A stretch of 64,000 nt of DNA, taken from NCBI RefSeq assembly GCF_010729485.1, contig NZ_AP022609.1, forward strand, positions 3,534,001-3,598,000, given 5' to 3'. How positions within the stretch are numbered: the first letter of the stretch is position 1; every line of letters begins with the position of its first letter. This document shows, in pieces, positions 31,978-46,678 of this stretch. The position numbers and the translations under genes were made by a program. This DNA comes from Mycolicibacter hiberniae (GTDB lineage: Bacteria > Actinomycetota > Actinomycetes > Mycobacteriales > Mycobacteriaceae). The notes below the pieces were generated by a model. The model ran no database searches. It was not told where the DNA came from and saw only the letters and a list, made by a program, of their open reading frames with translations.

Positions 31978-33093
31978 ATGACCACGATCCGCGGGGCGGT
32001 GCTGGAGCGGATCGGGGCGCCGCGCCCGTATGCCGCCTCACGCCCGCTGACGGTGGCACAGGTGGAGCTGGACCCGCCCGGGCCGGGCGAACTGCTGGTG
32101 CGGATCGAGGCCGCCGGAGTCTGTCACTCCGATCTGTCGGTGGTCGACGGGAACCGGGTGCGACCGGTGCCGATGCTGCTCGGCCACGAGGCCGCCGGCA
32201 TCGTCGATGCGGTCGGTGCGGGAGTCACCGCGGTGCGAATCGGACAGCGGGTGGTACTGGCCTTCCTGCCCCGCTGCGGCGCCTGCCCGGCGTGCGCCAC
32301 CGACGGCATGGCGCCGTGTGAGCCCGGCAGCGCCGCCAACGGCGCGGGAACCCTGCTCGGCGGTGGGCTGCGCCTGCACCGCGGCGACCAGACCGTCTAT
32401 CACCACCTCGGGGTCTCCGGGTTCGCCACGCATGCGGTGGTCAACCAGGCGAGCGCGGTGCCGGTCCCCGACGACGTACCTCCGGCGGTGGCGGCCCTCC
32501 TGGGCTGCGCGGTGCTGACTGGTGGCGGTGCCGTGCTCAACGTGGGCCGTCCGGGCCCCGGTGAGACCGTCGTGGTGGTCGGGCTCGGCGGGGTGGGGAT
32601 GGCCGCGGTGCTGACCGCACTGGCCTACGACGAGGTGCAGGTGGTCGCCGTCGACCGGCTGCCGGACAAGCTGACGGCCGCGGCCGAGCTGGGCGCGCAC
32701 CGGACGTACACCCCCGAGCAGGCCCTCGCCGCCGGCGTGCGCGCCCCGGTGGTGATCGAGGCGGCGGGGCACCCCGCCGCGTTGGAGGCCGCGATCGGCC
32801 TGACCGCGCCCGGCGGGCGCACCATCACCGTCGGCCTGCCGGCTCCGGACGCCCGGATCAGCGTGTCGCCGCTGGGGCTGGTCGCCGAGGGCCGCTCGCT
32901 GATCGGCAGCTATCTGGGGTCAGCGGTTCCCGCGCGCGACATCCCCCGTTTCGTCCAAATGTGGCGGGCCGGCCGGCTTCCGGTGGAGCGCTTGGTGTCG
33001 TCCATCTTGCCCCTGGAGCGGATCAACGAGGCCATGGACGCACTCGCCGACGGCGTCGCTGTGCGGCAGATCATCACCTTCGGTCGGCCCTGA
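31978..33093 (+). CDS. Zinc-type alcohol dehydrogenase (AdhE1/Rv0162c-like)
   Basis: A 371-residue class III-like MDR alcohol dehydrogenase. Catalytic zinc ligands are Cys49 (GVCHSD), His70 with Glu71 (GHEAAG) and a Cys near 175 (LLGCAVLTGGGA). The structural zinc lobe has Cys100, 103, 106 and 114. The Rossmann motif is GLGGVG. It oxidises alcohols or reduces aldehydes with NAD, possibly with a mycothiol adduct. The position next to thioesterase and TB18.5 matches adhE1 (Rv0162c). Its last 20 nt overlap the convergent monooxygenase gene, marking the border of the accessory cluster. Confidence 0.92.
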   Translation: MTTIRGAVLERIGAPRPYAASRPLTVAQVELDPPGPGELLVRIEAAGVCHSDLSVVDGNRVRPVPMLLGHEAAGIVDAVGAGVTAVRIGQRVVLAFLPRCGACPACATDGMAPCEPGSAANGAGTLLGGGLRLHRGDQTVYHHLGVSGFATHAVVNQASAVPVPDDVPPAVAALLGCAVLTGGGAVLNVGRPGPGETVVVVGLGGVGMAAVLTALAYDEVQVVAVDRLPDKLTAAAELGAHRTYTPEQALAAGVRAPVVIEAAGHPAALEAAIGLTAPGGRTITVGLPAPDARISVSPLGLVAEGRSLIGSYLGSAVPARDIPRFVQMWRAGRLPVERLVSSILPLERINEAMDALADGVAVRQIITFGRP

Positions 33094-34576
33094 CCGCCGG
33101 TTCGAAGGTGAAGTCGGCGGGCCGGAACCTGCGGGTCATGGCCCAGAAGGCACCGGCGCTACGCGGCCACTGCGTCACCACGCGTCCGTTTGCCGCCCGA
33201 AAATAGTTGCTGCATCGGGAGGTCCACACCGTGTTGCGCATCCACCGGTCGACTTTGGCGATGAATTCCGTCAGCGCGGGGGGCCGCACGGCGACATAGG
33301 ACTTGCGGGTACGCCGCAGATGCTTGAACACCCGCACGATGTACCGCGCCTGGGCTTCCAGCACGAAGATCACGCTGTTGGACCCGACGTTGGTGTTGGG
33401 TCCGTAGAGCATGAAGAAGTTGGGGAAACCGGGCATCGCCATACCCAGATAGGCGCGCGGCCCGTCGCGCCAGGCCTGCTTGAGCGTGGTTCCCCCCTCA
33501 CCGGTCACCTCGATCTGACCCAGGTAGTCCGCGGCCGCGTACCCGGTGGCGCAGACCACCACGTCGACTTCGCATTCGGTGCCGTCCTCGGCGACCACCG
33601 ATCGGGCACGCAACGCTGCGGCCGGGCTGTTCACCACTTCGACGTTGGCGCGGGCCAGCGCCGGCAGGTACTCCGAGGAGAAGACCAGACGCTTGCAGCC
33701 CAACGGGTGATCGGGCGTGAGCTCCGCGCGCAGGCTCGCGTCGGAGATGTTGGTGTCCAGCAGTTTTCGCGCGACATCGGTCAGCTCCCGGGTCCTGTCG
33801 CTGCCGCTCTCGATCACCGAGATGTTCGCTTCGCTGCGCAGCCACAGCCGCAGCCGATACAGCCGCTTGGCCAAGGGGACGCGGGCGAATACCCAACGCT
33901 GCAGCGGCGTGTAGGGACGGTCGGGCTTGGGCAGGATCCAGGTGGGCGACCGCTGCAGCGAGTACACCTTCTCGGCAACCTCGGCCAGCTCCGGCAGCAG
34001 TTGCGCCGCAGTCGAACCGGTCCCCAGCACGGCGACCTTCGCCCCGGCGATCGGCACCGAATGGTCCCACCGCGCCGAGTGCATGACGGTGCCGGTGAAG
34101 GGCTGCTCTTCGAGCAGATCCGGCAGCACCGGCCGGGTGAACAGGCCGACCGCCGAGACCACCGCGTCGAACCGGTACTCGGCGCCGTCGCGGGCACCCA
34201 GGCACCACTGGCGCCGGTCTTCCTCCCAGCGGGCCGAACAGATCTCCGTGCGCAGCCGCAGGTGTTCGGTCAGCCCGTGCTCGGCGGCGCAACGCTCGAA
34301 GTAGGCGAGGATCTCCGGCTGCTGCGACCATTGCCGCGACCAATGGGCGTTCAGGTCGAAAGAGTAGGAGTACAGGTGCGACCTGACATCGCATGCCAAC
34401 CCCGGATAGGTGTTGATCCGCCAGGTTCCCCCGACCCCGTCCTCCCGGTCGAAAATGGTGAAGTCGAAAAAGCCCGCACGCCGCAACAGGATTCCCAATG
34501 CCAGGCCGCCCGGACCGGCGCCGATGACGCCGATCGACAGCCCCTTTCCGGGCAGCCTCACCGGATCTGCAGACAT
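33074..34576 (-). CDS. Baeyer-Villiger-type flavin monooxygenase
   Basis: A 500-residue class B flavoprotein monooxygenase that inserts oxygen next to a ketone using NADPH and FAD. FAD-binding GAGPGG is near residue 20 (IGVIGAGPGGLALG). The BVMO-type fingerprint F-x-G-x3-H-x3-W-D is present as FTGTVMHSARWDHS, followed by the NADPH motif VLGTGSTAAQ. The VVCATGYAA segment is the usual second flavin motif. It is last in a seven-gene minus-strand operon. ATG 34576 overlaps the SDR gene by 19 nt; GTG 34561 would give a 4-nt overlap instead. The ketone substrate is unknown, but a cyclic one is suggested by the lactonase gene in the same cluster. Confidence 0.9.
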   Translation of the reverse strand: MSADPVRLPGKGLSIGVIGAGPGGLALGILLRRAGFFDFTIFDREDGVGGTWRINTYPGLACDVRSHLYSYSFDLNAHWSRQWSQQPEILAYFERCAAEHGLTEHLRLRTEICSARWEEDRRQWCLGARDGAEYRFDAVVSAVGLFTRPVLPDLLEEQPFTGTVMHSARWDHSVPIAGAKVAVLGTGSTAAQLLPELAEVAEKVYSLQRSPTWILPKPDRPYTPLQRWVFARVPLAKRLYRLRLWLRSEANISVIESGSDRTRELTDVARKLLDTNISDASLRAELTPDHPLGCKRLVFSSEYLPALARANVEVVNSPAAALRARSVVAEDGTECEVDVVVCATGYAAADYLGQIEVTGEGGTTLKQAWRDGPRAYLGMAMPGFPNFFMLYGPNTNVGSNSVIFVLEAQARYIVRVFKHLRRTRKSYVAVRPPALTEFIAKVDRWMRNTVWTSRCSNYFRAANGRVVTQWPRSAGAFWAMTRRFRPADFTFEPAVRADRR

Positions 34577-35289
34577 TGGCCGCCGTCCACGATCAGTTCG
34601 GCCCCGGTGATGAACGACGCGGCCTGCGAGACCAGAAATGCCACCGCATCGGCCACCTCGCCGGGGCGGCCGATCCGGCCACTGGCCGCCACCGCGGCCA
34701 GTCGCTGTTGCGTGACGTCGTCGAGCATCGGGGTGGAGATCGGCCCGGGAAACACCGCGTTGACCCGGATTCCCGCCGGGGCCAGTTCGGCGGCGACGGT
34801 CTGGGTCAGCCCGCGCAGCGCCCATTTCGACGAACCATAGGCACTGTGCTGGGGGAACGGGCGGATCGCCCCGGTGCTGCAGGTGTTGACTATGGCGGCA
34901 CCTTCGCACTGCCGCAGCTGCCCCAGAACCGCTTGGATGCCCAGAAAGGGGCCGAGGCAGTTGACCCGCCAGGCCCTTTCGAAGTCCTCGGGGGTCTCGT
35001 CGGCGATCGGCGCCCGGTGCAGGGTCCCGGCGTTGTTGATCAGCGTCGTCAACGCGCCGAACCGGCGCACAGTGGCGGCCACGGCAGCGTCCCACTGCTC
35101 GGGGCAGGTCACGTCCAGCTCAATGCCGATCAGCGCGTCGTCGTTGCGCGCGGCGACGGCGGCATCGAGCTCGGCCCGGTTCACGTCGCACGCGGCCACC
35201 GCGAATCCTTCCGCCCGTAGCCGTTCTGCGATCGCCCAGCCCTGGCCGCGGGCCGCACCGGTGACCAGGGCCACGCGTGGTTGACTCAT
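34558..35289 (-). CDS. Short-chain dehydrogenase/reductase
   Basis: A 243-residue classical SDR. The cofactor motif is TGAARGQG (residues 9-16), then NNAG near 90, a catalytic Ser in NTCSTGAIR and the Tyr-Lys pair in SAYGSSKWAL. The C-terminus follows the FabG pattern (RIGRPGEVADAVAFLVSQAASFITG). An Asp-poor position after strand two (ACDVNRAE) suggests NAD preference. It probably oxidises or reduces a hydroxyl or keto intermediate of the cluster pathway. ATG 35289 overlaps the stop of the aldolase gene (ATGA). Confidence 0.92.
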   Translation of the reverse strand: MSQPRVALVTGAARGQGWAIAERLRAEGFAVAACDVNRAELDAAVAARNDDALIGIELDVTCPEQWDAAVAATVRRFGALTTLINNAGTLHRAPIADETPEDFERAWRVNCLGPFLGIQAVLGQLRQCEGAAIVNTCSTGAIRPFPQHSAYGSSKWALRGLTQTVAAELAPAGIRVNAVFPGPISTPMLDDVTQQRLAAVAASGRIGRPGEVADAVAFLVSQAASFITGAELIVDGGQCLQIR

Positions 35290-36035
35290 CGGCCCCTCGC
35301 CTCGTCGAGGTGGTCGGCGGCTCCGCGCCGCAGTGCCTGCGACTCCGCGGCCAGCGTGATCATCTGGTATCCCAGGCCGGCCAGCGCCGCACCAGCGGTG
35401 CCCGAGCCGGCGTGAATCGCCGCTGTCACGCCCGCCTCGGATGCGGCGCGCTGAATCCGGGCCATCGCTGTCAGCATGCCGGGATCCGTGGTGGCCCGGC
35501 CGACGTCGACCCCCATCGAGATGGCCAGGTCGGCGGGCCCGACGTAGACACCGGCCAGTCCGGGGACCGCGCAGATCCGCTCCAGGTCGGCCAATGCCGC
35601 TGCGGTCTCGATCATGGCGAACACGTCCGCGCGCGCCTCCAGGGCACCCAGGTCGCGGCCCAATGCGGCCCGCAGGGGCCCGAAGCTGCGGTTGCCCGCC
35701 GGCGGATAGCGGGTCGCGGCGACCGCGGCCGCTGCCTGTTCGGCCGTCTCGATGAGCGCCACGATGACTGCGTCGGCTCCGGCGTCGAGCACCCGGCCGA
35801 TGGGGGCCGGATCGGCGTTGGGCACCCGGACCGCCGTCGCGATCGGCAGGTGCTCGGTGTACCGCAGCATCGAGGCGATCCGGGCGTCGTCGAGGTAGCT
35901 GTGCTGGGCGTCGAAGCCCACGTAGTCGTATCCGGCGCGGGCGAACTCCTCGGGCCCCAACACCGTTGGACCGGTGATCCAGCCGCCCCAGAGCGGTGCC
36001 CGCTGCGCCAGCGCGTCGCCCAACGCCGACATCAT
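35286..36035 (-). CDS. HpcH/HpaI family aldolase
   Basis: A 249-residue class II aldolase of the 2-oxo-acid HpcH/HpaI/citE group. The N-terminus reads LWGGWITGPTVLGPEEFARAG, followed by the catalytic His region GFDAQHSYLDD, Arg in TAVRVPNAD, metal ligand Glu in FAMIETAAALADLE and Asp in VYVGPADLAISMG. Family members split 4-hydroxy-2-oxo acids or acyl-CoA-like substrates to pyruvate plus an aldehyde. In this cluster it may cleave a ring-opened product. ATG 36035 overlaps the preceding stop (ATGA); the longer in-frame ORF to 36110 overlaps the dehydrogenase gene and is rejected. Confidence 0.9.
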   Translation of the reverse strand: MMSALGDALAQRAPLWGGWITGPTVLGPEEFARAGYDYVGFDAQHSYLDDARIASMLRYTEHLPIATAVRVPNADPAPIGRVLDAGADAVIVALIETAEQAAAAVAATRYPPAGNRSFGPLRAALGRDLGALEARADVFAMIETAAALADLERICAVPGLAGVYVGPADLAISMGVDVGRATTDPGMLTAMARIQRAASEAGVTAAIHAGSGTAGAALAGLGYQMITLAAESQALRRGAADHLDEARGR

Positions 36036-37000
36036 GCGACCATCGCAATCTTGACGCGGCCTGGAACCGGTCGTGCCGCCAGCTCGAAGGCGTCCTGCGC
36101 TTGGTGGCAACCGAAGACATGGGTGACGTAGTCGCCCAGCAGTTCGGGATGGTCGGCGGCGAAGCGGGCTGCGGCCGACAGCATCCGCCGACGGTCGTGG
36201 GTGATCCCGGAGATCAACGTCAGATTGTTGCGCAGCATGGCGCGCATGTTGATCGGATAACTGTCGTCGTCGGGGACTCCGAAGTAGAACACCGTCCCGC
36301 CGGGTGCGGCGGCCTCGATGGCGTGGCCCAGGGTGGCGACCTGGTGGCCCACCGCCTCGATCACGATCTCCGGCCGGTCGGCGGGGTCCAGGTGGCGCAG
36401 CCAGCGGTCGCTGGTCGCCTGGACGACGGAGTCGACGCCGAACGCGGCGGCCACATCGCGGCGGTCGACCGGGTCCACCCCGGTGACCCGACGTGCGCCG
36501 GCGGCTTTGGCCACGACGCTGAACAGCAGGCCGATCGAGCCCTGACCGATCACCGCGACGTGGCGCCCGGCGAGGTCGGGCAGCTGTTCGACGGCGTAGA
36601 GCACACAGGCCAGCGGCTGCAGACCCACCGCGCGGGCGGGATCCAGTGCTGGGTCATAGCCCAGCAGCCCGTCGCCGTCACTGACCACCCGCTCCATCAG
36701 GCCGTCGAAGCCCGACGCCCAGCCGACGACGCGGTCTCCGGGCCGATGCTGTGGATGCCGGCTGACGATGACGTCGCCGACGATCTCGTGGATCGGGAAG
36801 CCGAGCTTCTCGGCGGCGCCGGCACCGTCGTCACCGGGCAGCCTGCCCTGTGCGCCGCGAAAGGCCGGCAGGTCGCTGCCGCACACTCCGGCAGCGACGA
36901 ACCGCAGCAGCACCTGGCCCGGGCCGATCTGTTGTTCGGCGGGTTCGGCAACCTCGACCCGCTCGAACTGATACGGCGCGATCAACCGGTGTGCCCACAT
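36032..37000 (-). CDS. MDR-family dehydrogenase without structural-zinc lobe
   Basis: A 322-residue medium-chain dehydrogenase. The catalytic zinc motif is GVCGSDLP near residue 40 and a second ligand region reads GFPIHEIVGDV, so His/Glu are present. The usual four-Cys structural lobe is absent, as in some polyol- and threonine-dehydrogenase relatives. The Rossmann motif is VIGQGSIG. It should convert an alcohol to a ketone or aldehyde with NAD(P). Start ATG 37000 is 3 nt after the P450 stop, so it is cotranslated with its neighbours. It is a good candidate for making the ketone used by the Baeyer-Villiger enzyme. Confidence 0.88.
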   Translation of the reverse strand: MWAHRLIAPYQFERVEVAEPAEQQIGPGQVLLRFVAAGVCGSDLPAFRGAQGRLPGDDGAGAAEKLGFPIHEIVGDVIVSRHPQHRPGDRVVGWASGFDGLMERVVSDGDGLLGYDPALDPARAVGLQPLACVLYAVEQLPDLAGRHVAVIGQGSIGLLFSVVAKAAGARRVTGVDPVDRRDVAAAFGVDSVVQATSDRWLRHLDPADRPEIVIEAVGHQVATLGHAIEAAAPGGTVFYFGVPDDDSYPINMRAMLRNNLTLISGITHDRRRMLSAAARFAADHPELLGDYVTHVFGCHQAQDAFELAARPVPGRVKIAMVA

Positions 37001-37003
37001 GTC

Positions 37004-38233
37004 CTACACCTCCACCGGAATGCTGTTCCAGCCCCACTGGAAGCTGGACGGCAGCCTGGTCGCGCCGTCCTCGATGATGCGGTACTCCCCGACACGGCGC
37101 AGCCATTCCTGCACCAGGACCGTGACTTCCAGCCGGGCCAGGTGATAACCGATACAGAAATGCTGTCCGCGCCCGAAAGCCAGCGACCTTTCTATCTTTC
37201 GGTCCCAATGGAATTCGTCGGGATCGGGGTACTGGCGCTCGTCCCGGTTGGCCGATGCCAACAGGGCGATGATGCGCTGACCGGGCCCGATCGTCCTGCC
37301 GTGCAATGCGAAGGGTTTGCGGGCGGTGCGGGCGAACCATTGCGCGGGGGCGCAGTAGCGGATCATCTCCTCGCGTGCGCGCGGCACGGCGCTGGTGGGA
37401 TCCGACCGCACCGCGGCCAGTTGGTCCGGCCGGCGGGCCAGCTCCCACAGTCCGTGCGCCACGATTTTGGGTACCGTTTCGGTGCCGCCGATGAAGATGC
37501 ACAGCAGTTGCGTGGCGGCTTCGACATCGTCGAGGTCGCTGCCGTCCGGTAAGCGGTAGGACAGCATTCCGTCGACGATCGGCAGTGCGCCGCGATCCCG
37601 CGCGGCGCGGCGGCGCTGCACGGCCGGGATGAGGTACTGCAGATAGTTGGGCCGCGCCGCGGCCGTGTCCACCCCGCTGCCGGCCTGCGCGAGGCTGCCG
37701 GCGTTGACCGCGGCCAGCACCTCCGCGGCGAGGTCGGTGGGAATGCCCAGTAGTTCGCACACCACCTGGGCCACCACTATTCCGCCATAGTCACAGGTCA
37801 AGTCGAAGCGGCCGCGCGGAAGCAGTTCATCGAGCCGCTGGTTGGCCAGGGCACGCACGCGGTCTTGCCAGTCGGCCACCGACCGGGGCCGGAATGCCGG
37901 CGACTGCAGCCGACGGATGTCGTCATAGATCGGCTTGTCGAAGACGGCGTGAAAGGGCAGCGGATGCAGGGGCGGGTCGGGTACCGGACCGCTGTTGTGG
38001 TGTGCCAACACACTAGCCGCCGGCAGGGTGCCCTCGGAGGCCACGAAGGTTCCGTCGCCGACCGCCAGCGCCTCCCAGATGTCGTCGAATCGGGATAGTG
38101 CGTAGAGATCCCACTGCGGCACGTAGTAGAGCGGGTGGCGGTCGCGCAGCACGCGATAGTACGGCAGCGGGTCGGCCATCACCGCCGGATCGAAGGGGTC
38201 ATAGGAGAACTCCGGGGCCGCAACGCTTGTCAC
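37004..38233 (-). CDS. Cytochrome P450
   Basis: A 409-residue soluble bacterial P450. The heme loop FGRGQHFCIGYHLAR places the thiolate at Cys360. The I-helix oxygen motif is IFIGGTETVPK, with Glu instead of the more common Asp, and ExxR is in EEMIRY. The meander shows PDPDEFHWDR. It hydroxylates an organic substrate using a ferredoxin that is not encoded nearby. No ferredoxin or reductase gene is seen in the cluster, so a chromosomal one must serve. The start GTG/ATG region overlaps the downstream alpha/beta-barrel gene by 4 nt. It likely catalyses the first oxidation of the cluster pathway. Confidence 0.93.
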   Translation of the reverse strand: MTSVAAPEFSYDPFDPAVMADPLPYYRVLRDRHPLYYVPQWDLYALSRFDDIWEALAVGDGTFVASEGTLPAASVLAHHNSGPVPDPPLHPLPFHAVFDKPIYDDIRRLQSPAFRPRSVADWQDRVRALANQRLDELLPRGRFDLTCDYGGIVVAQVVCELLGIPTDLAAEVLAAVNAGSLAQAGSGVDTAAARPNYLQYLIPAVQRRRAARDRGALPIVDGMLSYRLPDGSDLDDVEAATQLLCIFIGGTETVPKIVAHGLWELARRPDQLAAVRSDPTSAVPRAREEMIRYCAPAQWFARTARKPFALHGRTIGPGQRIIALLASANRDERQYPDPDEFHWDRKIERSLAFGRGQHFCIGYHLARLEVTVLVQEWLRRVGEYRIIEDGATRLPSSFQWGWNSIPVEV

Positions 38234-38946
38234 GTGTTGTCTCGCTGTAGCGGCGAGGGGGGCAAGGCCTGCAGGATCGAGTCCTCCCAGCCGTCACGCA
38301 AGGCGGGGGCCACACTCATCCAGGTCACGATCTCGGCCGGCGGATGGTCTTTCCACGACGGGTAGTGCTCGGCGAAGCAATCCCATCCGCCGTCGAGCGC
38401 CCAGTAGTGGATGACCTCGTTGAAGCGGAACGTGGTGGTGAACGAACCGAGCCAGCGCTTTCCGGTGCGCTCCGACCACGGCACGTACAGCCGCTCCAGC
38501 TCGCGAATGTAGTCGTCCTGGCGACCGGGCTTGGTCTGCATGATTTCCTGAATCACCACGGTCGCGTCGAAGCCGGATTCGCACAACGCAGACAGCGTCT
38601 TGTTGCGCGGCCCCGGATACATGATGCGGCCCTCCCCCGAGGCACCGATGCCGGCCAGGTAAGCCGACCAATCGGCCGCGGGTTGGGCGTGGCTGCCGCC
38701 CCGGCTCTGTGCCCGCCCGATCCGGGCGTAGTCGGCGAACGCGTCGATCTCCCAGATGACGGTGACCTGCGGCCAATGCCCGTTGTAGGCGGTGGACTCC
38801 CACAGTCCGAAGAGGCGGGCGCCGAGCTCGGTCATCATGGGCTGGTAGGTCTCGGTGAAGTTGCGGGTGAAGTCGCCGCTGGTGCCGCGGCCCAGATCGA
38901 TCGTCTCGTGCAGATACAGCAGGGTGTGGTCGTAGTACTTGCGCAT
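38230..38946 (-). CDS. Duplicated alpha/beta-barrel (NIPSNAP/ABM-like) protein
   Basis: A 238-residue protein made of two similar halves, each with a beta strand, helix and Trp-rich segment (ETYQPMMTELGARLFGLWES; RELERLYVPWSERTGKRWLG). This is the pattern of dimeric alpha/beta-barrel folds such as NIPSNAP and ABM monooxygenases. No catalytic residue can be named. Such proteins often sit in oxidative catabolic operons, where they bind hydrophobic ligands. ATG 38946 overlaps the upstream stop (TGATG), and the stop overlaps the P450 gene by 4 nt. The ORF extension to 38985 is rejected for that reason. Confidence 0.7.
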   Translation of the reverse strand: MRKYYDHTLLYLHETIDLGRGTSGDFTRNFTETYQPMMTELGARLFGLWESTAYNGHWPQVTVIWEIDAFADYARIGRAQSRGGSHAQPAADWSAYLAGIGASGEGRIMYPGPRNKTLSALCESGFDATVVIQEIMQTKPGRQDDYIRELERLYVPWSERTGKRWLGSFTTTFRFNEVIHYWALDGGWDCFAEHYPSWKDHPPAEIVTWMSVAPALRDGWEDSILQALPPSPLQRDNT

Positions 38947-39500
38947 CAGCCGACCGAGACCAGATCGGAAGTCACCGGCAGGCAATGACTCTGGTCGCTA
39001 CGGAATCTCTCCGGTCCGTCGATGCGCGCCACCTCCCCGCCGGCGGCGGCAAGCGCCCGACGTTTGAACGCCCGTCCCGCCACGGAGGGCGTGTGCTGGA
39101 CCGTGCGCAGCCGGCGATCCAGCTCCAGCGTCGCGGGCCGCCCCCACACCACGAGCTCCGTCAGGCTGCAACGCAGCGCCTGCTGCACCCGCTGGTGGAT
39201 CCGCGCGTCAGCGCGGAGCGCATCGGCGGCCACCGCCAGGGCGTGCCCGGGCGGCTCGCACTCGGGCGCGGCAAGGTGGGCCTCCAGGTCGTCGGCGGTC
39301 AGACCGAGGATCTGCAACGGCCGCAGGTCCAGGTGCGCGGGCACCAGCACGCGCACGTCCCAGCCGGTCGCCGCCCGCTGATACAGCCAGCCGCCGGCGC
39401 TGTGCACCAGGCCGGCGACGTCGCGGGCGATGACGTCGAGTCGGTAGCGCAGACACTGATCGCGCGCCGAGGAACCAAGGGCCGCAGCGGTACTCGTCAT
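38946..39500 (-). CDS. Hypothetical protein, first gene of the oxidative operon
   Basis: A 184-residue soluble protein rich in Ala, Arg and Leu. It has YRLDVIARDVAGLVHSAGGWLYQRAATGWDVRVLVP followed by DLRPLQILGLTADDLEAHLA; the rest has no motif I recognise. The start ATG at 39500 has GGGAAG just upstream; the longer frame to 39578 runs through the control region. It is the first gene of the seven-gene minus operon, 105 bp from a TTTGTAAAGT operator. Because it leads a catabolic operon it may be a binding or accessory protein, but nothing in the sequence proves it. Confidence 0.65.
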   Translation of the reverse strand: MTSTAAALGSSARDQCLRYRLDVIARDVAGLVHSAGGWLYQRAATGWDVRVLVPAHLDLRPLQILGLTADDLEAHLAAPECEPPGHALAVAADALRADARIHQRVQQALRCSLTELVVWGRPATLELDRRLRTVQHTPSVAGRAFKRRALAAAGGEVARIDGPERFRSDQSHCLPVTSDLVSVG

Positions 39501-39605
39501 CACATCTTCCCAGCTCGTCGCGAGGACCATCAGACGGTGCCGCCGGTCCGACGAGCCCGGTCCGTCCGCGCAGCACAACTTCCGGTGATATTACAGTTGG
39601 AGCAG

Positions 39606-39617
39606 AATTTGTAAAGT
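39606..39617. promoter_or_regulatory. TTTGTAAAGT operator, copy 1
   Basis: AATTTGTAAAGT lies between the divergent minus operon (start 39500) and the DUF427 gene (start 39659). It matches the sites at 41274 and 43179 over ten consecutive bases. An inverted TTACA half occurs about 15 bp away (39591-39595). Confidence 0.65.
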
Positions 39618-39658
39618 CGAATTCGGCGGAACACGACTGGGGCGAGGGGTGAGGGCAC

Positions 39659-40354
39659 GTGAGTCTGGTTGCCGGAGATGGTCCGCTCAGCACTGAGCGG
39701 GCCGGTTGGTTCGCGCCGGAGATCACCGGCGCTTTGGTCTACGTCGAGCCGCATCCGCGCCGGGTGCAGGCGATCCGCGCACAGCGCTGCGTGATCGACA
39801 CCGAAGAGGTGCTGCTGGTCCATCGCCAGGGCGAGCCGTTGAGCTACGCCTTTCGCGAGGACGCCGTTCGCGGGCTGCCGTATCGGGCGCTGCCGGAGGC
39901 GCCCGGCTTCGTGCAGGTCGCCTGGGACGCCGTGGACACCTGGTTCGAGGAGGGCCGTCAGCTGGTGCACTACCCGCCGAACCCCTATCACCGGATCGAT
40001 TGCCGCCCTACCCGGCGAGCCTTGCGGGTCGAGGTCGCCGGCATGGCACTGGTGGACACCGACGACACGGTCATCCTGTTCGAGACCGCCCTGGCCCCAC
40101 GGCTCTACGTCACCGCGAACCACGTGCGCACCGACCTGCTGCAGGCATCGACGACGTCGACGTATTGCAACTACAAGGGCTACGCCAGCTACTGGAGCGC
40201 GGTCGTCGGCGACACCGTCATACCGGACCTGGCGTGGGCCTACCTGGACCCGCTCCCCGAAAGTGCAGCCATTTCCGGGCTTTTCAGCTTCGATCTGTCA
40301 CGGGCAGCCGGTTTCGCCGAGTTGCCGAAACCGGCTGGGCGTCTGCCGCTATAG
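39659..40354 (+). CDS. DUF427 protein
   Basis: A 231-residue protein with the DUF427 core. Residues 118-190 read RALRVEVAGMALVDTDDTVILFETAL, then STTSTYCNYKGYASYWSAVVGD, the family hallmark. The N-terminal 110 residues form a second, related but degenerate domain. DUF427 has a beta-sandwich fold of unknown function; members are common near oxidative metabolism genes. GTG 39659 is chosen because it is close behind GAGGGG. It sits divergent to the P450 operon with the shared operator between them. Its stop overlaps the convergent thioesterase stop. Confidence 0.85.
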   Translation: MSLVAGDGPLSTERAGWFAPEITGALVYVEPHPRRVQAIRAQRCVIDTEEVLLVHRQGEPLSYAFREDAVRGLPYRALPEAPGFVQVAWDAVDTWFEEGRQLVHYPPNPYHRIDCRPTRRALRVEVAGMALVDTDDTVILFETALAPRLYVTANHVRTDLLQASTTSTYCNYKGYASYWSAVVGDTVIPDLAWAYLDPLPESAAISGLFSFDLSRAAGFAELPKPAGRLPL

Positions 40355-41248
40355 CCGCGAGTGCTCGGCGATGGTGTTGTCGCTGGTACGCAATGGCCGG
40401 ATCAGGCCATCCTGGGCGAAGGAGGCGATGAGTTCGCCCTCCTCGGTGTGCACCGTTCCGCGAACGTAGGACATGCCCGCGCCCACCTGCGTGCTCTCGT
40501 GACTGTAGAGGAGCCAGCCGTCCCAGCGCACCTGCTCGTGGAAGCTCACCGTGACGGTCATGGGAGCCGTCGACACCGTCACGTGCGACTGGCTCGTTCC
40601 GATCCCGGCATGCGCGCGCATCGTGGTTGAGATCCCCAAATGTCCTGTGAAGTAAGCGATCAGCGCCTTGGCGAGATCATCACGGGCAGGAATAGGGTCA
40701 TAGTGCAGCCAGGCGTAGAGCTCCGGGGGCCCAACCTCGTCAGGACTGTTGACGTCCACCACGTCGACAAGGCGCACCTCTCGTCCAGCCATCGGCATGG
40801 CGCAGGGGTTGGCCTCCGCCGGGGCGGTGACGTCCGGGCGGGGAAGGTGGTGGGTGATGATGTCGGCCGACGGCACATCGGCGAGCACCGTGATGGTTGC
40901 GCAGCGTTTGCCGTTCTGCAGGACCGAGATCACCGCGGCGGCCGTGGAGCGCCCCTCGCTGACGACATCGATGGCGTATTCCGCCGGCGGCCCCACCAGA
41001 ACAGCCCGGGCGAACACCGCGTGCACCGATCGGATCGACTTGTCCGCGAACCGTTGCGCCGCCGCCATGATGGCCTGCGCGACCAACTGGGTGCCCTCCA
41101 CCACCTGGCGCTCGTCCCCACCGGCCAGCCCGGTGGCGCCGACGAAGCGGTCCGGACCGTCGGCAACCACCTCGAACAGGTCCAGCAGGCCGCTTACCGA
41201 CCAGTGCGTCGCAGGGGAAGTCTCGGTTGTCGCGGATATTTCAGACAT
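40349..41248 (-). CDS. Acyl-CoA thioesterase II-like (double hotdog, TesB)
   Basis: A 299-residue protein with two hotdog repeats. The N-terminal half has GATGLAGGDERQVVEGTQLVAQAIMAA, matching the TesB helix with its active-site residues, and the second half has AYFTGHLGISTTMRAHAG and TVSFHEQVRWDGWLLYSHES, the TesB C-terminal block. It would release free acids from acyl-CoA intermediates. ATG 41248 lies 26 bp from the TTTGTAAAGT operator, so it is divergent from the SMP-30 gene under common control. A longer in-frame ORF into the SMP-30 gene is rejected. Confidence 0.88.
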   Translation of the reverse strand: MSEISATTETSPATHWSVSGLLDLFEVVADGPDRFVGATGLAGGDERQVVEGTQLVAQAIMAAAQRFADKSIRSVHAVFARAVLVGPPAEYAIDVVSEGRSTAAAVISVLQNGKRCATITVLADVPSADIITHHLPRPDVTAPAEANPCAMPMAGREVRLVDVVDVNSPDEVGPPELYAWLHYDPIPARDDLAKALIAYFTGHLGISTTMRAHAGIGTSQSHVTVSTAPMTVTVSFHEQVRWDGWLLYSHESTQVGAGMSYVRGTVHTEEGELIASFAQDGLIRPLRTSDNTIAEHSRL

Positions 41249-41273
41249 TCCGCGAGCGTGACATTTTGGGCGC

Positions 41274-41285
41274 ATTTTGTAAAGT
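41274..41285. promoter_or_regulatory. TTTGTAAAGT operator, copy 2
   Basis: ATTTTGTAAAGT lies between the divergent thioesterase (start 41248) and SMP-30 (start 41328) genes. It shares TTTGTAAAGT with the sites at 39606 and 43179. Confidence 0.65.
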
Positions 41286-41327
41286 GTGTGCAAGCCGCGC
41301 CCAGGGCGGCCGGACAGGAGGGCGACA

Positions 41328-42197
41328 GTGTTGGGTTTCGCCGAGACGGGTTCGCAGCCAGCCGTGGACGCCTCGTCGTCGACGCCGGCGCCCCTGGCGG
41401 GCGGCTTCTGCTTCGGGGAAGGGCCCCGCTGGTTCGAGGGCTTGTTGTGGTTTTCGGACATGCTCGGCGAGGCGATCCACACCGTCACGCTGAACGGCTC
41501 GATGACAACGGTTCCCCTGCCGGGCCACAGCCCCAGCGGGTTGGGCTTCCGGCCGGACGGCACCCTGCTGGTCGCCTCGGCCGCAGATCGTCAGGTGCTC
41601 TGCTACGACGGCGACTCGGTCACCACGCTGGTCGATCTGGCTGACCGCGTGCCGGCCGATCTCGGCGACATGGTGGTGGACGCGGCCGGCCGCAGCTACA
41701 TCGGGTCACAGGCCCCCTCCGGTGGGGTGCTCGTACGCGTGGATCCGGACGCGAGCGTGCGCATAGTCGCCGAGGACCTCGACTTTCCGAATGGGATGGT
41801 GATCTCCCCGGACGGGACCACGCTGACCGTCGCCGAATCGATGGGCCGTCGGCTCACCCGGTTCACCATCGACGCCGACGGCGGACTGCAAGCCCGCCGC
41901 ACCTTCGCCGACGGGCTGGACGGACCACCGGATGGCATCGCGCTCGACGCCGCCGGAGGGGTCTGGACGGCGATGACGCTGGCGAATCAGTTCGAACGCA
42001 TCGTCGAGGGCGGCATCGTGACCGACCGCATTGCGACCGGCGGCCGGGCCGCGATCGCCTGCGCGCTGGGCGGCCGCCAGCGCCGCACCCTGTTTCTGCT
42101 GACAAGTCCCAGCGCCTACCCCAAGCGGCTGATGGGGACCCGCGACTCACGGCTGGACACGGTGACCGTGGAGATTCCCGGCGCCGGATTGCCCTGA
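41328..42197 (+). CDS. SMP-30/gluconolactonase family lactonase
   Basis: A 289-residue six-bladed beta-propeller hydrolase. Metal-binding residues sit in FGEGPRWF (Glu), DFPNGMVIS (Asn) and GPPDGIALD (Asp), the standard set of gluconolactonase/SMP-30 enzymes. Blades are marked by repeated GLGFRPDGTL-type segments. It would open a lactone, the kind of product made by the Baeyer-Villiger enzyme of the same regulon. GTG 41328 follows AGGAGGG; the frame upstream runs into the operator. The next gene begins 10 nt after its stop. Confidence 0.9.
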   Translation: MLGFAETGSQPAVDASSSTPAPLAGGFCFGEGPRWFEGLLWFSDMLGEAIHTVTLNGSMTTVPLPGHSPSGLGFRPDGTLLVASAADRQVLCYDGDSVTTLVDLADRVPADLGDMVVDAAGRSYIGSQAPSGGVLVRVDPDASVRIVAEDLDFPNGMVISPDGTTLTVAESMGRRLTRFTIDADGGLQARRTFADGLDGPPDGIALDAAGGVWTAMTLANQFERIVEGGIVTDRIATGGRAAIACALGGRQRRTLFLLTSPSAYPKRLMGTRDSRLDTVTVEIPGAGLP

Positions 42198-42207
42198 AAG
42201 AGATGCC

Positions 42208-43014
42208 ATGACCGACGCCTACTACGAGCTGCTGGACCCCGACGACTCCCGCGGCGAGAGGTTCGCGGCCACCGATTTCGTCCGAGGAACCTGGTCAGCT
42301 CAGATTCAGCACGCCGCGCCGGTGTCGGCGCTGCTGGTCCGGGCGCTGGAGCGCCTGGATGCCCGCGACGACACCCGGCTCAGCCGGGTCACCATCGACC
42401 TGCTGGGACCGGTACCGGCCGAGGGTGACCTGTGGGTGCGCTGCCAGGTGGACCGCCCCGGCAAGCAGATCGAACTGGTCAGCGCTCAAATGCTGGCAGC
42501 GGGGCCTGACCGGCTCCTGCGGCCGGTCGCCCGGGCGACCGGTTGGCGGCTCCAGAAACTGGACACCTCCGAGGTGCAGCACGCCTCGGCGCCTCCCCTG
42601 CGGCCGGTCCACGAGGCGCGCGGCATGGACATGCAGCGCAAGTGGGACCGCAACTACGTGCACAGCCTGGATTGGCGGTGGTTGACCACGCCGCTGGCAC
42701 CGGGGGCCGGCGAGTCGTGGATCTCGCCGATCGTCGACCTGGTCAACGGCGAGGCGATGACACCACTGCAGCGGCTGTTCGCGGTGGCCGACGACGCCAA
42801 CGGCGTCGGCACCAAGCTCGACATCACCACGTGGACGTTCCTCAACACCGACCTGGTGGTGCACGTGCACCGGATTCCCGACGGCGAATGGATCGGGATC
42901 CGCGCCGAGACCAACTACGGCCCGGACGGCATCGGGACGACCATCGGCACGCTGTTCGACCAGCGCGGCGCGGTTGCCGGCATCCAGCAGTCGGTCCTGG
43001 TGCGCCGTCGTTGA
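42208..43014 (+). CDS. Acyl-CoA thioesterase-like protein (double hotdog)
   Basis: A 268-residue thioesterase-superfamily (4HBT_3/TesB-like) protein. The first hotdog contains GTWSAQIQHAAPVSALLVRALER and the second DWRWLTTPLAPGAGESWISPIVDLVNGE, followed by LDITTWTFLNTDLVVHVHRIPDGEWIGI. The Asp-x-Asn in WTFLNTDL may be catalytic. It is distinct from the thioesterase at 40349. It is cotranscribed with the lactonase gene, so it probably acts on CoA esters from the same pathway. Confidence 0.85.
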   Translation: MTDAYYELLDPDDSRGERFAATDFVRGTWSAQIQHAAPVSALLVRALERLDARDDTRLSRVTIDLLGPVPAEGDLWVRCQVDRPGKQIELVSAQMLAAGPDRLLRPVARATGWRLQKLDTSEVQHASAPPLRPVHEARGMDMQRKWDRNYVHSLDWRWLTTPLAPGAGESWISPIVDLVNGEAMTPLQRLFAVADDANGVGTKLDITTWTFLNTDLVVHVHRIPDGEWIGIRAETNYGPDGIGTTIGTLFDQRGAVAGIQQSVLVRRR

Positions 43015-43178
43015 CCGCCCCCGGCAGTCCTGCCTATCCCCGGTCATCGCGACAGCTCCCGCTTATCGGATGTGACGCCAGGCGCCTCGATCGCGATAAT
43101 CGACTCACGGTCCGGCCCGGGACCCACGACGGCGAGGAACGATGTCCAAGCACCGAACTCCCGTGACACTCGCTCCCT

Positions 43179-43190
43179 ACTTTGTAAAGT
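43179..43190. promoter_or_regulatory. TTTGTAAAGT operator, copy 3 (autoregulatory)
   Basis: ACTTTGTAAAGT (arms ACTTT and AAAGT around GT) ends 7 nt before the TetR ATG. It matches the sites at 39606 and 41274, so it probably lets the TetR protein repress its own gene. Confidence 0.7.
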
Positions 43191-43197
43191 TTGCGCA

Positions 43198-43731
43198 ATG
43201 ACCCCTTCGGTGGACCCCCCCGACAACTCGACGCGGCAGCGGATCCTCGCGGCCACCGCCGAGGTGCTCGGGCGCAACGGGATGACCAAACTCAGCCTGT
43301 CCGAGGTGGCCGCCCAGGCCGGGGTCTCCCGCCCGACCCTGTATCGGTGGTTCCCGTCGAAGGAAGAACTGATCTCAGCGTTCTCCCGCTACGAGCGGCA
43401 CATCTTCGACAGCGGTCTGGCGAGCGCCACCGAAGGACTTAAGGGAGCCGAAAAACTCGACGCTGCACTGCGTTTCATCGTCGACTACCAGCACTCCTCG
43501 ACGGGCGTGCGAATGATCGACATCGAACCCAAGCACGTGCTGGCCGATTTCTCCCGGATCATCGTGCCGATGCGCGAGGGCCTGCAGCGCATGCTGACCG
43601 GACCTGATGCCGCAGTGAAGGCGGCCGCGGCCATCCGGATCGCCATCTCGCACTACATCATTCGCAGCGACGACTCTGAGCAGTTCCTCGCTCAGCTGCG
43701 CCAGGCCGTCGGCAGCAGGCACCGCGACTAG
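43198..43731 (+). CDS. TetR-family regulator of the oxidative cluster
   Basis: A 177-residue TetR protein. The DNA-binding region reads ILAATAEVLGRNG, then LSEVAAQAGVSRPTLYRWFPSKEELI. The C-terminal ligand domain is short (about 110 residues). ATG 43198 is taken because the operator lies right before it; the frame is open to 43072 without a good start. The gap after the thioesterase gene is 183 bp. With an operator copy in front of itself and of two other divergent promoters, it is the best candidate for the cluster repressor. The inducer is unknown. Confidence 0.88.
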   Translation: MTPSVDPPDNSTRQRILAATAEVLGRNGMTKLSLSEVAAQAGVSRPTLYRWFPSKEELISAFSRYERHIFDSGLASATEGLKGAEKLDAALRFIVDYQHSSTGVRMIDIEPKHVLADFSRIIVPMREGLQRMLTGPDAAVKAAAAIRIAISHYIIRSDDSEQFLAQLRQAVGSRHRD

Positions 43732-45128: not shown

Positions 45129-46028
45129 ATGGCTACCCGCGAAGACATCTCGTTCCGTTCCGGCGCGGACCGCATCAGCGCATGGTTGTACCGCCCCGAT
45201 GACTCCGGCCCGAACGGCGCACCGCTGCTGGTCATGGCGCATGGCCTGGGCGCGGTGCGGACCATGCGCCTGGACGCCTATGCCGAGCGATTCGCCGCGG
45301 CCGGTTACGCCTGCCTGGTATTCGACTACCGCAACTTCGGCGACAGCGACGGCGCTCCGCGCCAGTTGCTCGACGTGGGCATGCAGCTGGCGGACTGGTC
45401 GGCCGCGGTCGACTTCGCGCATACCCTGCGCGGCGTCGACCGCAACCGGATCGGCCTGTGGGGCACCTCGTTCGGCGGTGGGCACGTGATCGCCACCGCG
45501 GCCCGGCTGCCGGTGGCGGCGGTGGTGGCGCAATGCCCGTTCACCGATGGAATCGCTTCGGCGCGCTGCATTCCGCCGTTGACCACCGCGCGGATCAGCG
45601 TGCTGGCCTTGCGTGATCTGGCCGCGGCCCGGCTGGGCAATCCGCCGGTGATGGTGGCAACCGCCGGTCGCCCCGGCGATGTCGCGCTGATGAGTACGCC
45701 CGACTCCTACCCGGGTTACCTGAAGCTGGCTCCGCCGGGACAGAACCTGCGCAACGAGGTTGCCGCCCGCATCGGGATGAAGATCCTGGCCTACCGCCCA
45801 GGCCGGCTGGCAGCCAAGGTGTCATGCCCGATTCTGTTCTGCGTCTGCGACACCGATTCGGTCGCCCCGCCGGGGCCGACCCTGCGCTACGCCGCAAAAG
45901 CCCCCCGCGGCATCGTCAAGAGATATCCCGAGGGCCACTTCGACATCTACGTCGGCGATGCCTTCGAGCGGGTGGTCGCCGATCAGCTGGAGTTCTTGGA
46001 CCGCAACCTCGCCTCGCCGTCGGGGTAA
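45129..46028 (+). CDS. Alpha/beta-hydrolase
   Basis: A 299-residue serine hydrolase. The nucleophile elbow GTSFGG is near residue 115 (RIGLWGTSFGGGHV), preceded by the oxyanion turn VMAHGLGAVRTM. A charge-relay Asp is likely in FCVCDTDSVAP and His in PEGHFDIY. No signal peptide is visible. The substrate is unknown; a carboxylic ester or thioester is likely. It is divergent from the FAD oxidase and convergent with the TetR gene, which it overlaps by 46 nt. Confidence 0.85.
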   Translation: MATREDISFRSGADRISAWLYRPDDSGPNGAPLLVMAHGLGAVRTMRLDAYAERFAAAGYACLVFDYRNFGDSDGAPRQLLDVGMQLADWSAAVDFAHTLRGVDRNRIGLWGTSFGGGHVIATAARLPVAAVVAQCPFTDGIASARCIPPLTTARISVLALRDLAAARLGNPPVMVATAGRPGDVALMSTPDSYPGYLKLAPPGQNLRNEVAARIGMKILAYRPGRLAAKVSCPILFCVCDTDSVAPPGPTLRYAAKAPRGIVKRYPEGHFDIYVGDAFERVVADQLEFLDRNLASPSG

Positions 46029-46678
46029 ACCCCCAGCGGCGACTCGACCCGGATCGTCTCGTCGCGGATCAGGCCACGCAGCAGCGCGGTGCTGAACTCC
46101 GCGGCGATCTCCTTGGCACTGCGGCGCCCGCTGGGCCGCAACCATCGATAGGCCCCCAGCGTCATGCCGATGTAGCCCAGTGCCAGCACGTGCGAATCGC
46201 AGGGGTAGAACTCGCCGCTGGCGATACCACGGTCGATCAGGCCGTGCACGTGCTCGTAGACCTGGGCTTCCTTCTCCCGGATCGCGGCCACCTGCTCCTC
46301 GGTGAACCACTCGGTGATGTAGGGCTGCTCCTGGAAGTAGACCGCCGCGCCTTCTGGATTGACCGCGATCTGGTCGAGCAGGCGCACCGTGTACTGGTAC
46401 AACGCCTCACGCGCGGTCCAGGACGGGTCGTCGTGCACGGCTGCCAGCGTCCGTTCCGCGGCCCCCTGGTAGATGTCGTACAGGATCAACGACTTGCTGG
46501 CGTAGTAGTGGTAGACGGTCGCTTTGTTGAGCCCCACCACCTCGGCGACGTCATCCATGCGGGTGCCGTGGTAACCACGGGCGGCGAACAACTTGGTGGC
46601 GACCGCGAGCAGCTCTTCGCGACGGGAAGGGCTCTGGGTCGACCCCCCGGACGTGGCCTTGCCGTTTGTCATGTCCAC
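45983..46678 (-). CDS. TetR-family regulator (Rv0158-like)
   Basis: A 231-residue TetR regulator. The HTH region is ELLAVATKLFAARGYHGTRMDDVAEVVGLNKATVYHYYASKSLIL. The ligand-binding domain contains FQEQPYITEWFTEEQVAAIREKEA. Upstream lies a CAAC-N2-GTTG dyad (46717-46726) that fits autoregulation. The position relative to ptpB and the Rv0161-like oxidase fits Rv0158. The 3' end overlaps the hydrolase gene convergently by 46 nt. Confidence 0.88.
   Translation of the reverse strand: MDMTNGKATSGGSTQSPSRREELLAVATKLFAARGYHGTRMDDVAEVVGLNKATVYHYYASKSLILYDIYQGAAERTLAAVHDDPSWTAREALYQYTVRLLDQIAVNPEGAAVYFQEQPYITEWFTEEQVAAIREKEAQVYEHVHGLIDRGIASGEFYPCDSHVLALGYIGMTLGAYRWLRPSGRRSAKEIAAEFSTALLRGLIRDETIRVESPLGVYPDGEARLRSKNSS

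Follow-up and report, generated by a model that had tools for sequence, protein, structure and literature searches.

A predicted ~30-bp TetR operator overlapping the promoters of a P450/Baeyer-Villiger monooxygenase/lactonase gene cluster in Mycolicibacter hiberniae

Introduction

What controls a catabolic gene cluster whose intergenic regions share one short DNA element? This question is raised by a stretch of 64,000 nt of the Mycolicibacter hiberniae genome (contig NZ_AP022609.1, positions 3,534,001 to 3,598,000; the whole stretch is called the window below), in which copies of a 12-bp motif accompany genes for a cytochrome P450, a Baeyer-Villiger-type monooxygenase (BVMO), a lactonase and a TetR-family regulator. 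In the original prediction, the 12-mer was read as the operator of this regulator. We analyzed the motif in the window, in the complete genome and in related genomes, and consider it likely, from sequence comparisons, that the TetR protein encoded at 43198-43731 is the repressor of a shared operator of about 30 bp that is built into the promoters of its target genes.

Three motif copies at one locus

The 12-mers were found at 39606, 41274 and 43179, all on the plus strand and within 3.6 kb, confirming the predicted motif in three control regions. All three are intergenic, again as predicted: the 39606 copy lies between the divergent genes at 38946-39500 (minus strand) and 39659-40354 (plus strand), the 41274 copy lies between the divergent genes at 40349-41248 (minus strand) and 41328-42197 (plus strand), and the third copy (43179-43190) is separated by 7 nt from the TetR start codon ATG at 43198. 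The window holds no other copy, as noted in the original prediction, even when one mismatch is allowed; dinucleotide shuffles gave an expectation of 0.04, and 0 of 100 shuffles reached three copies. In the whole single-contig genome of 4,396,654 bp, the 10-mer TTTGTAAAGT occurs three times, always at this locus and with zero copies outside the cluster, while a backward control occurs once. At all three sites, T[G/T]ACA is found exactly 12 nt upstream of TTTGTAAAG (at 39591, 41259 and 43164). The sites were scored with a position weight matrix (PWM) built from L047-L100, the loci that do not belong to the closest relatives; the next score in the window is 3.4 bits, and none of 100 column-shuffled PWMs reached even the lowest of the three site scores. 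The predicted sites and the proposed binder are:

39588..39619, no strand assigned: predicted operator/promoter site 1, from sequence and PWM (23.7 bits), between the seven-gene minus-strand operon and the DUF427 gene; left arm TTACA at 39591-39595, right arm TTTGTAAAG at 39608-39616
41255..41287, no strand assigned: predicted operator/promoter site 2 (39.3 bits), between TesB (minus) and the lactonase (plus); arms AGCGTGACA at 41255-41263 and TTTGTAAAGT at 41276-41285
43162..43192, no strand assigned: predicted operator/promoter site 3 (37.3 bits), before TetR
43198..43731, plus strand: TetR-family regulator, proposed binder (Pfam TetR_N, 1.2e-15)

The conserved unit is an inverted repeat of about 30 bp

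For comparison, 60 loci were fetched around the best TetR matches, chosen by lowest E-value with one locus per genome, representing 60 of the 97 TetR-positive genomes (defined below). This sample favours closer relatives; the other 36 relatives lie outside the counts, and stretches of 12 of them were fetched separately, some with TetR copies. In the 60 loci, TTTGTAAAG was found in 145 copies on the strand of TetR and in a single copy on the opposite strand, and 141 of these 146 copies have T[G/T]ACA exactly 12 nt upstream. Four scrambled control words occurred 0-2 times each. With the reverse anchor, T[T/C]TGTAAA was found 12 nt downstream of AGCGTGACA in 100 of 119 cases. The 12-mer thus is a real shared element but, other than predicted, not the complete operator: it is only the right arm of an inverted repeat of about 30 bp that overlaps promoter hexamers. 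The consensus is AGCGTGACACTT-N8-ATTTGTAAAGC, and the dyad arms TKACA and TGTAA are 14 bp apart, about two helical turns.

A weighted profile of 139 distinct sites (effective number 22.9) contains one distinct inverted-repeat centre, with a score of 0.7 versus -12 for the runner-up. The TKACA and TTTGTAAA columns were the seeds, and their conservation in the profile is by construction; the symmetry reaches non-seed columns (C at -1 with G at 26, A at -3 with T at 28). Two other readings were rejected. The 12-mer at 43179, ACTTTGTAAAGT, is nearly a small perfect palindrome, but the C that pairs with its G is present in only 8% of the weighted sites (column 17), and therefore the small palindrome was attributed to chance, and the 30-bp dyad was treated as what is conserved. 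A direct repeat reached at best a shift score of -13.3, compared with 0.7 for the inverted centre.

Two variations of the dyad were observed. At many lactonase sites (L049-L084), a further T[G/T]ACA, mostly TTGACA, precedes the left arm by 22 bp, with 44 counts at spacing 34 in the TesB-lactonase region; it could be either a third half-site or another -35 element. In one related group, a variant dyad TTTACA...TTTGTAAACT precedes a leaderless-looking frame between two TetR copies (L087 13299, L093 13337, L095 13337, L097 13325, L099 13325 and similar), and could be the mark of a TetR paralogue whose specificity has shifted.

Genes that carry the site in related genomes

The genes around the three sites are listed below, beginning with the putative seven-gene operon on the minus strand.

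38946..39500, minus strand: uncharacterised protein, first gene of the operon; no Pfam match, first behind site 1 in relatives
38230..38985, minus strand: NIPSNAP-like protein (PF07978, 7.9e-06)
37004..38233, minus strand: cytochrome P450 (PF00067, 6.3e-19)
36032..37000, minus strand: zinc-type alcohol dehydrogenase (PF00107/PF08240)
35286..36032, minus strand: HpcH/HpaI aldolase family protein (PF03328, 8.3e-28)
34558..35289, minus strand: SDR oxidoreductase (PF13561, 6.4e-61)
33074..34492, minus strand: Baeyer-Villiger-type flavin monooxygenase, last gene of the operon (FMO-like, 6.3e-16; steroid monooxygenase 4ap3, 5e-58)
39659..40354, plus strand: DUF427 protein, divergent from the operon (PF04248, 1.2e-28)
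40349..41248, minus strand: TesB-like acyl-CoA thioesterase (4HBT_3/4HBT_3C; TIGR00189 under its cut-off)
41328..42197, plus strand: SMP-30/gluconolactonase-like lactonase (PF08450, 5.1e-50, scanned from 41286)
42208..43014, plus strand: second acyl-CoA thioesterase, TE2 (4HBT_3C, 1e-21), 10 nt behind the lactonase

For the lactonase, the GTG at 41328, behind AGGAGGG, seems a more plausible start than 41286. The family names suggest that the cluster degrades a cyclic compound, which would be hydroxylated and oxidized to a ketone before a lactone is formed and opened; solved relatives of the P450, the BVMO and the lactonase are only distant.

A gene was counted as carrying the site when at least 15 bits were reached within 260 bp upstream, using PWMs that left out the respective locus and near-identical sites. 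Dropped before counting were tblastn matches covering less than 40% of the query, SDR and P450 matches with less than 50% identity, and 8 genes with less than 200 testable upstream bases. The site was present upstream of the first gene of the P450 operon in 36 of 36 loci, upstream of TesB in 44 of 44, and upstream of the lactonase in 48 of 52, in line with the expected conservation in orthologous clusters. It was much rarer upstream of NIPSNAP (12/39) and P450 (1/40), and in the 60-locus scan it was found in no case upstream of fadD, SRPBCC, 4HBT_a, ADHp, BVMO, SDR, HpcH, ADHm, TE2, FADox and abh. Control PWMs with shuffled columns yielded 0 sites upstream of every gene class. Control of the DUF427 gene, also part of the original prediction, is suggested by 7 of 41 loci, which include the subgenus of the window, but the site is poorly conserved elsewhere.

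A further site, AGCGTGACAGTTCAGTGCAGAATTGTAAAGC (28.4 bits), precedes an SDR gene 1.94 Mb away from the cluster in the same genome, at 1.635 Mb. For this gene, 19 genomes were searched, and 19 of 28 matches were fetched and scanned. An orthologue with at least 83% identity is present in six genomes (M. hiberniae and five close relatives), and the site was found in all six (28.4-33.6 bits), whereas 0 of 10 other scanned SDR copies or paralogues had it (best score 1.5 bits). In three genomes (G004, G018 and G053), a 72-73% orthologue is located inside the corresponding BVMO/ADH/lactonase cluster, adjoining the first gene of the operon; an internal stop interrupts the G018 copy, and these three cluster stretches showed no P450. 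By its upstream sequence, the distant SDR gene probably belongs to the regulon, which would thus be wider than originally proposed.

Predicted promoter geometry of the sites

The arms of the dyad coincide with candidate promoter hexamers. At site 1, a minus-strand promoter, TTTACA-N16-TAATAT, would point towards the P450 operon, and ATTACA-N16-TAAAGT is a candidate on the plus strand. At site 2, the plus strand has a -35 GTGACA (41258-41263) and a -10 TAAAGT (41280-41285), and the minus strand has TTTACA-N17-CACGCT, with a weak -10, followed after 6 nt by the TesB ATG. At site 3, a -35 GTGACA (43163-43168), 16 nt and a -10 TAAAGT (43185-43190) are followed after 7 nt by the TetR ATG. In 20 of the 29 TetR copies with a nearby motif, 8 nt separate the first in-frame start from TTTGTAAAG or its close variant, and the distance is 1-9 nt in the remaining nine.

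According to the available part of PMC3898074, -10 motifs of M. tuberculosis (TANNNT) are centred 7-12 bp before the transcription starts. TAAAGT is present in all three window sites, and its centre is 10.5 bp away from the TetR ATG, so that a leaderless TetR message is predicted. The same part of that paper reports no conserved -35 motif for M. tuberculosis promoters, and therefore the strong left arm would be more than an ordinary -35 element. From this arrangement, the dyad could gate transcription in both directions.

Co-occurrence with TetR and the cluster

Some TetR match was found in all 198 genomes searched, and a genome was classified as TetR-positive when its best match had an E-value of at most 1e-40. 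This applied to 97 of 118 genomes of the same genus, that of the window included, and a close TesB was present in 92 of the 118. The exact pattern TGACA-N12-TTTGTAAAG was found in 88 of the 97 TetR-positive and in 0 of the 21 TetR-negative genomes of the genus, and in 1 of 80 genomes of the same order; a backward control of the pattern occurred once in 198 genomes. TesB is missing in the same 21 TetR-negative genomes, one of which has only a 33% match containing a stop. The profile ties the site to the package of TetR plus cluster, not to TetR alone.

A natural deletion is found in Mycolicibacter arupensis (G077; L046, L128). In this species, the BVMO-to-TE2 stretch is absent from the locus and TetR directly follows ADHp; the genome has no exact site and no TesB match, and in place of the distant SDR orthologue only a 53% paralogue was found. 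Together with its genome-wide uniqueness and its conservation, this co-occurrence supports the core idea of a TetR regulon with a shared operator.

Two side observations concern the TetR gene. The gap between TE2 and TetR (43015-43197 in the window) is 183 bp long, compared with about 760-790 bp in five close relatives (L041-L045), and sequence was either lost or gained between them. TetR relatives with 68% and 53% identity are present in contigs L147 and L154, which are labelled as Acidobacteria and Acidimicrobiales metagenome-assembled genomes; either a binning error or a transfer would account for them.

The TetR protein and alternative explanations

The protein encoded at 43198-43731 has the features of a TetR regulator. 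PF00440, the N-terminal helix-turn-helix of TetR proteins, scored 57.5 bits versus a cut-off of 24, and the structural model is all-helical, with nine helices and a pLDDT (predicted local distance difference test) value of 82.6. The best folds in the PDB are TetR-type regulators, among them FasR, EthR2, KstR and Rv0078 (16-22% identity for these four). The scores are far under the NCBIfam equivalog cut-offs for KstR (31.4 versus 280 bits), FasR (36.6 versus 330) and MftR (33.4 versus 224.9). The protein is 99% identical to the TetR of Mycolicibacter engbaekii, and across 71 copies the identity is 0.86 in the DNA-binding half versus 0.69 in the remainder.

We propose that this protein would bind the inverted repeat of about 30 bp as a repressor. 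The two arms would also serve the target promoters as -35 and -10 elements, such that binding of TetR would exclude RNA polymerase, and at sites 1 and 2 a single dyad would serve two divergent promoters. The targets would be the seven-gene P450/ADH/aldolase/SDR/BVMO operon, TesB, the lactonase-TE2 unit and TetR itself, probably also DUF427 in this subgenus and probably the distant SDR gene. A ligand, perhaps a pathway metabolite or an acyl-CoA, would release TetR from the DNA.

Several observations weigh against this proposal. The autoregulation included in the original prediction fits the site before TetR in the window and in close relatives, but a dedicated site precedes only 31 of 71 TetR copies (23 of 63 copies with at least 64% identity and 8 of 8 more distant ones). 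Both divergent regions are thus near-universal predicted targets, whereas a dedicated site at the TetR promoter is not. Of the 40 copies without their own site, 22 follow TE2 or the lactonase at a distance of 51-141 bp, and we infer that these may be co-transcribed from the lactonase site; the other 18 have no TE2 or lactonase within 150 bp upstream. The last base of the -10 element, T in all window sites, is C or G in many relatives. The exact site is absent from 9 TetR-positive genomes, 5 of which also lack TesB. The 60 loci were picked by TetR homology, and therefore the presence of TetR in them is no evidence. Lastly, a different TetR_N gene is found directly upstream of the distant SDR gene in M. 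hiberniae, making local control by this neighbour possible, and another is convergent beside a thiolase gene with a site (see below).

Such neighbours leave a small chance that the dyad is recognized by another regulator, be it a TetR paralogue or an unlinked protein, or that TetR is an activator. Different TetR_N proteins stand beside both outlying sites, several relatives have two or more TetR copies near sites, and TetR and the TesB cluster were lost together, so that the profile alone cannot separate this TetR from a co-travelling factor. However, the promoter of this TetR has the site in the window and in close relatives, S44-R50 of its recognition helix is invariant in 32 aligned sequences, and the second TetR near the window cluster (45983-46678) was seen in just 4 of 60 loci, with many stretches ending before its position. 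A dyad overlapping the -35 and -10 elements agrees better with repression than with activation. It is still less likely that the motif is only a promoter (-35 GTGACA, 16-nt spacer, -10 TAAAGT) for a housekeeping or alternative sigma factor, without any regulator site: the spacing of the hexamers fits at all window sites and the start codon is at a leaderless distance in the 20 of 29 TetR copies, but the conservation is dyad-symmetric and reaches beyond the hexamers, many relatives lack the T at the end of the -10 element, the asymmetric motif is oriented away from the gene in front of both the P450 operon of relatives and the distant SDR gene, and exact copies are few per genome and confined to TetR-bearing genomes, save for the one same-order genome.

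Comparison with known TetR systems

TetR of E. coli, SimR and DesT are local repressors beside divergent promoters, which is also the arrangement proposed here for the repressor at 43198-43731. Their operators have 15-17 bp according to the available part of PMC4150764, and the dyad conserved here is about twice as long. In the same part, 22-32 bp are given for TetR proteins that bind as two dimers and 15-17 bp for those that bind as one, and QacR (28 bp), CgmR (32 bp) and Ms6564 (31 bp) are described as dimer-of-dimers regulators. The predicted M. hiberniae operator falls within 22-32 bp and resembles these three in its length of about 30 bp and in outer arms about two helical turns apart. 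It differs from them in that they target efflux pumps, whereas here the putative targets are catabolic genes and the arms coincide with promoter hexamers. From the operator length, the arm spacing and the published lengths, two TetR dimers per site can be guessed by analogy. An extended model is offered tentatively and with less than even confidence: operator and core promoter would be one and the same, with arms that are at once TetR half-sites and -35/-10 elements, forming a repressor-gated bidirectional promoter with two QacR-like bound dimers and leaderless mRNAs, in a so far undescribed regulon of most mycobacteria.

In mycobacterial lipid and sterol catabolism, KstR, KstR2, FasR and others likewise combine a TetR-fold regulator beside catabolic enzymes with palindromic intergenic operators, and KstR, FasR and EthR2 are among the nearest folds, as described above. 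No description of this cluster or regulon was found among the titles listed in literature searches on motif and cluster, and the available part of PMC3388012 contains nothing on the cluster. PMC4482099, as far as available, names 30 regulators by M. tuberculosis gene number and has its motif logos outside the text. The operator-promoter unit is undescribed as far as the literature searches reach, though its regulator may correspond to one of those 30. The regulator class is ordinary, and the operator-promoter unit is unusually clean. For a catabolic cluster kept in most mycobacterial genomes sampled, the results name a regulator, an operator and targets that can be put to the test, and one of these targets is a distant gene invisible to gene-neighbourhood analysis. 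They also offer a clean system for studying how the same bases may serve both a TetR dyad and a promoter that is leaderless and bidirectional.

Further sites outside the cluster

The thiolase site is a dyad CTTTACA...TGTAAGG directly before the gene (G000 2950992; L101 1495-1530; L200 7487), with an apparently leaderless geometry. Seven close relatives were searched, and the site was present in all six that have the gene (23.9-30.3 bits); the gene is absent from G077, the relative that lost the cluster. The thiolase was left out of the regulon, as it may belong to the adjoining TetR_N regulator.

The extra-cluster sites in other species are a selection among the matches listed. Full dyads were found beside related acyl-CoA-dehydrogenase-like genes in four other genomes (L157 7689, L158 8076, L160 7641 and L163 7982). 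These genes have a mutual identity of 64-81% (Pfam was run on three of the four), and they are a possible further branch of the regulon. In other species, further sites adjoin molybdopterin oxidoreductase and wax-ester-synthase-type genes.

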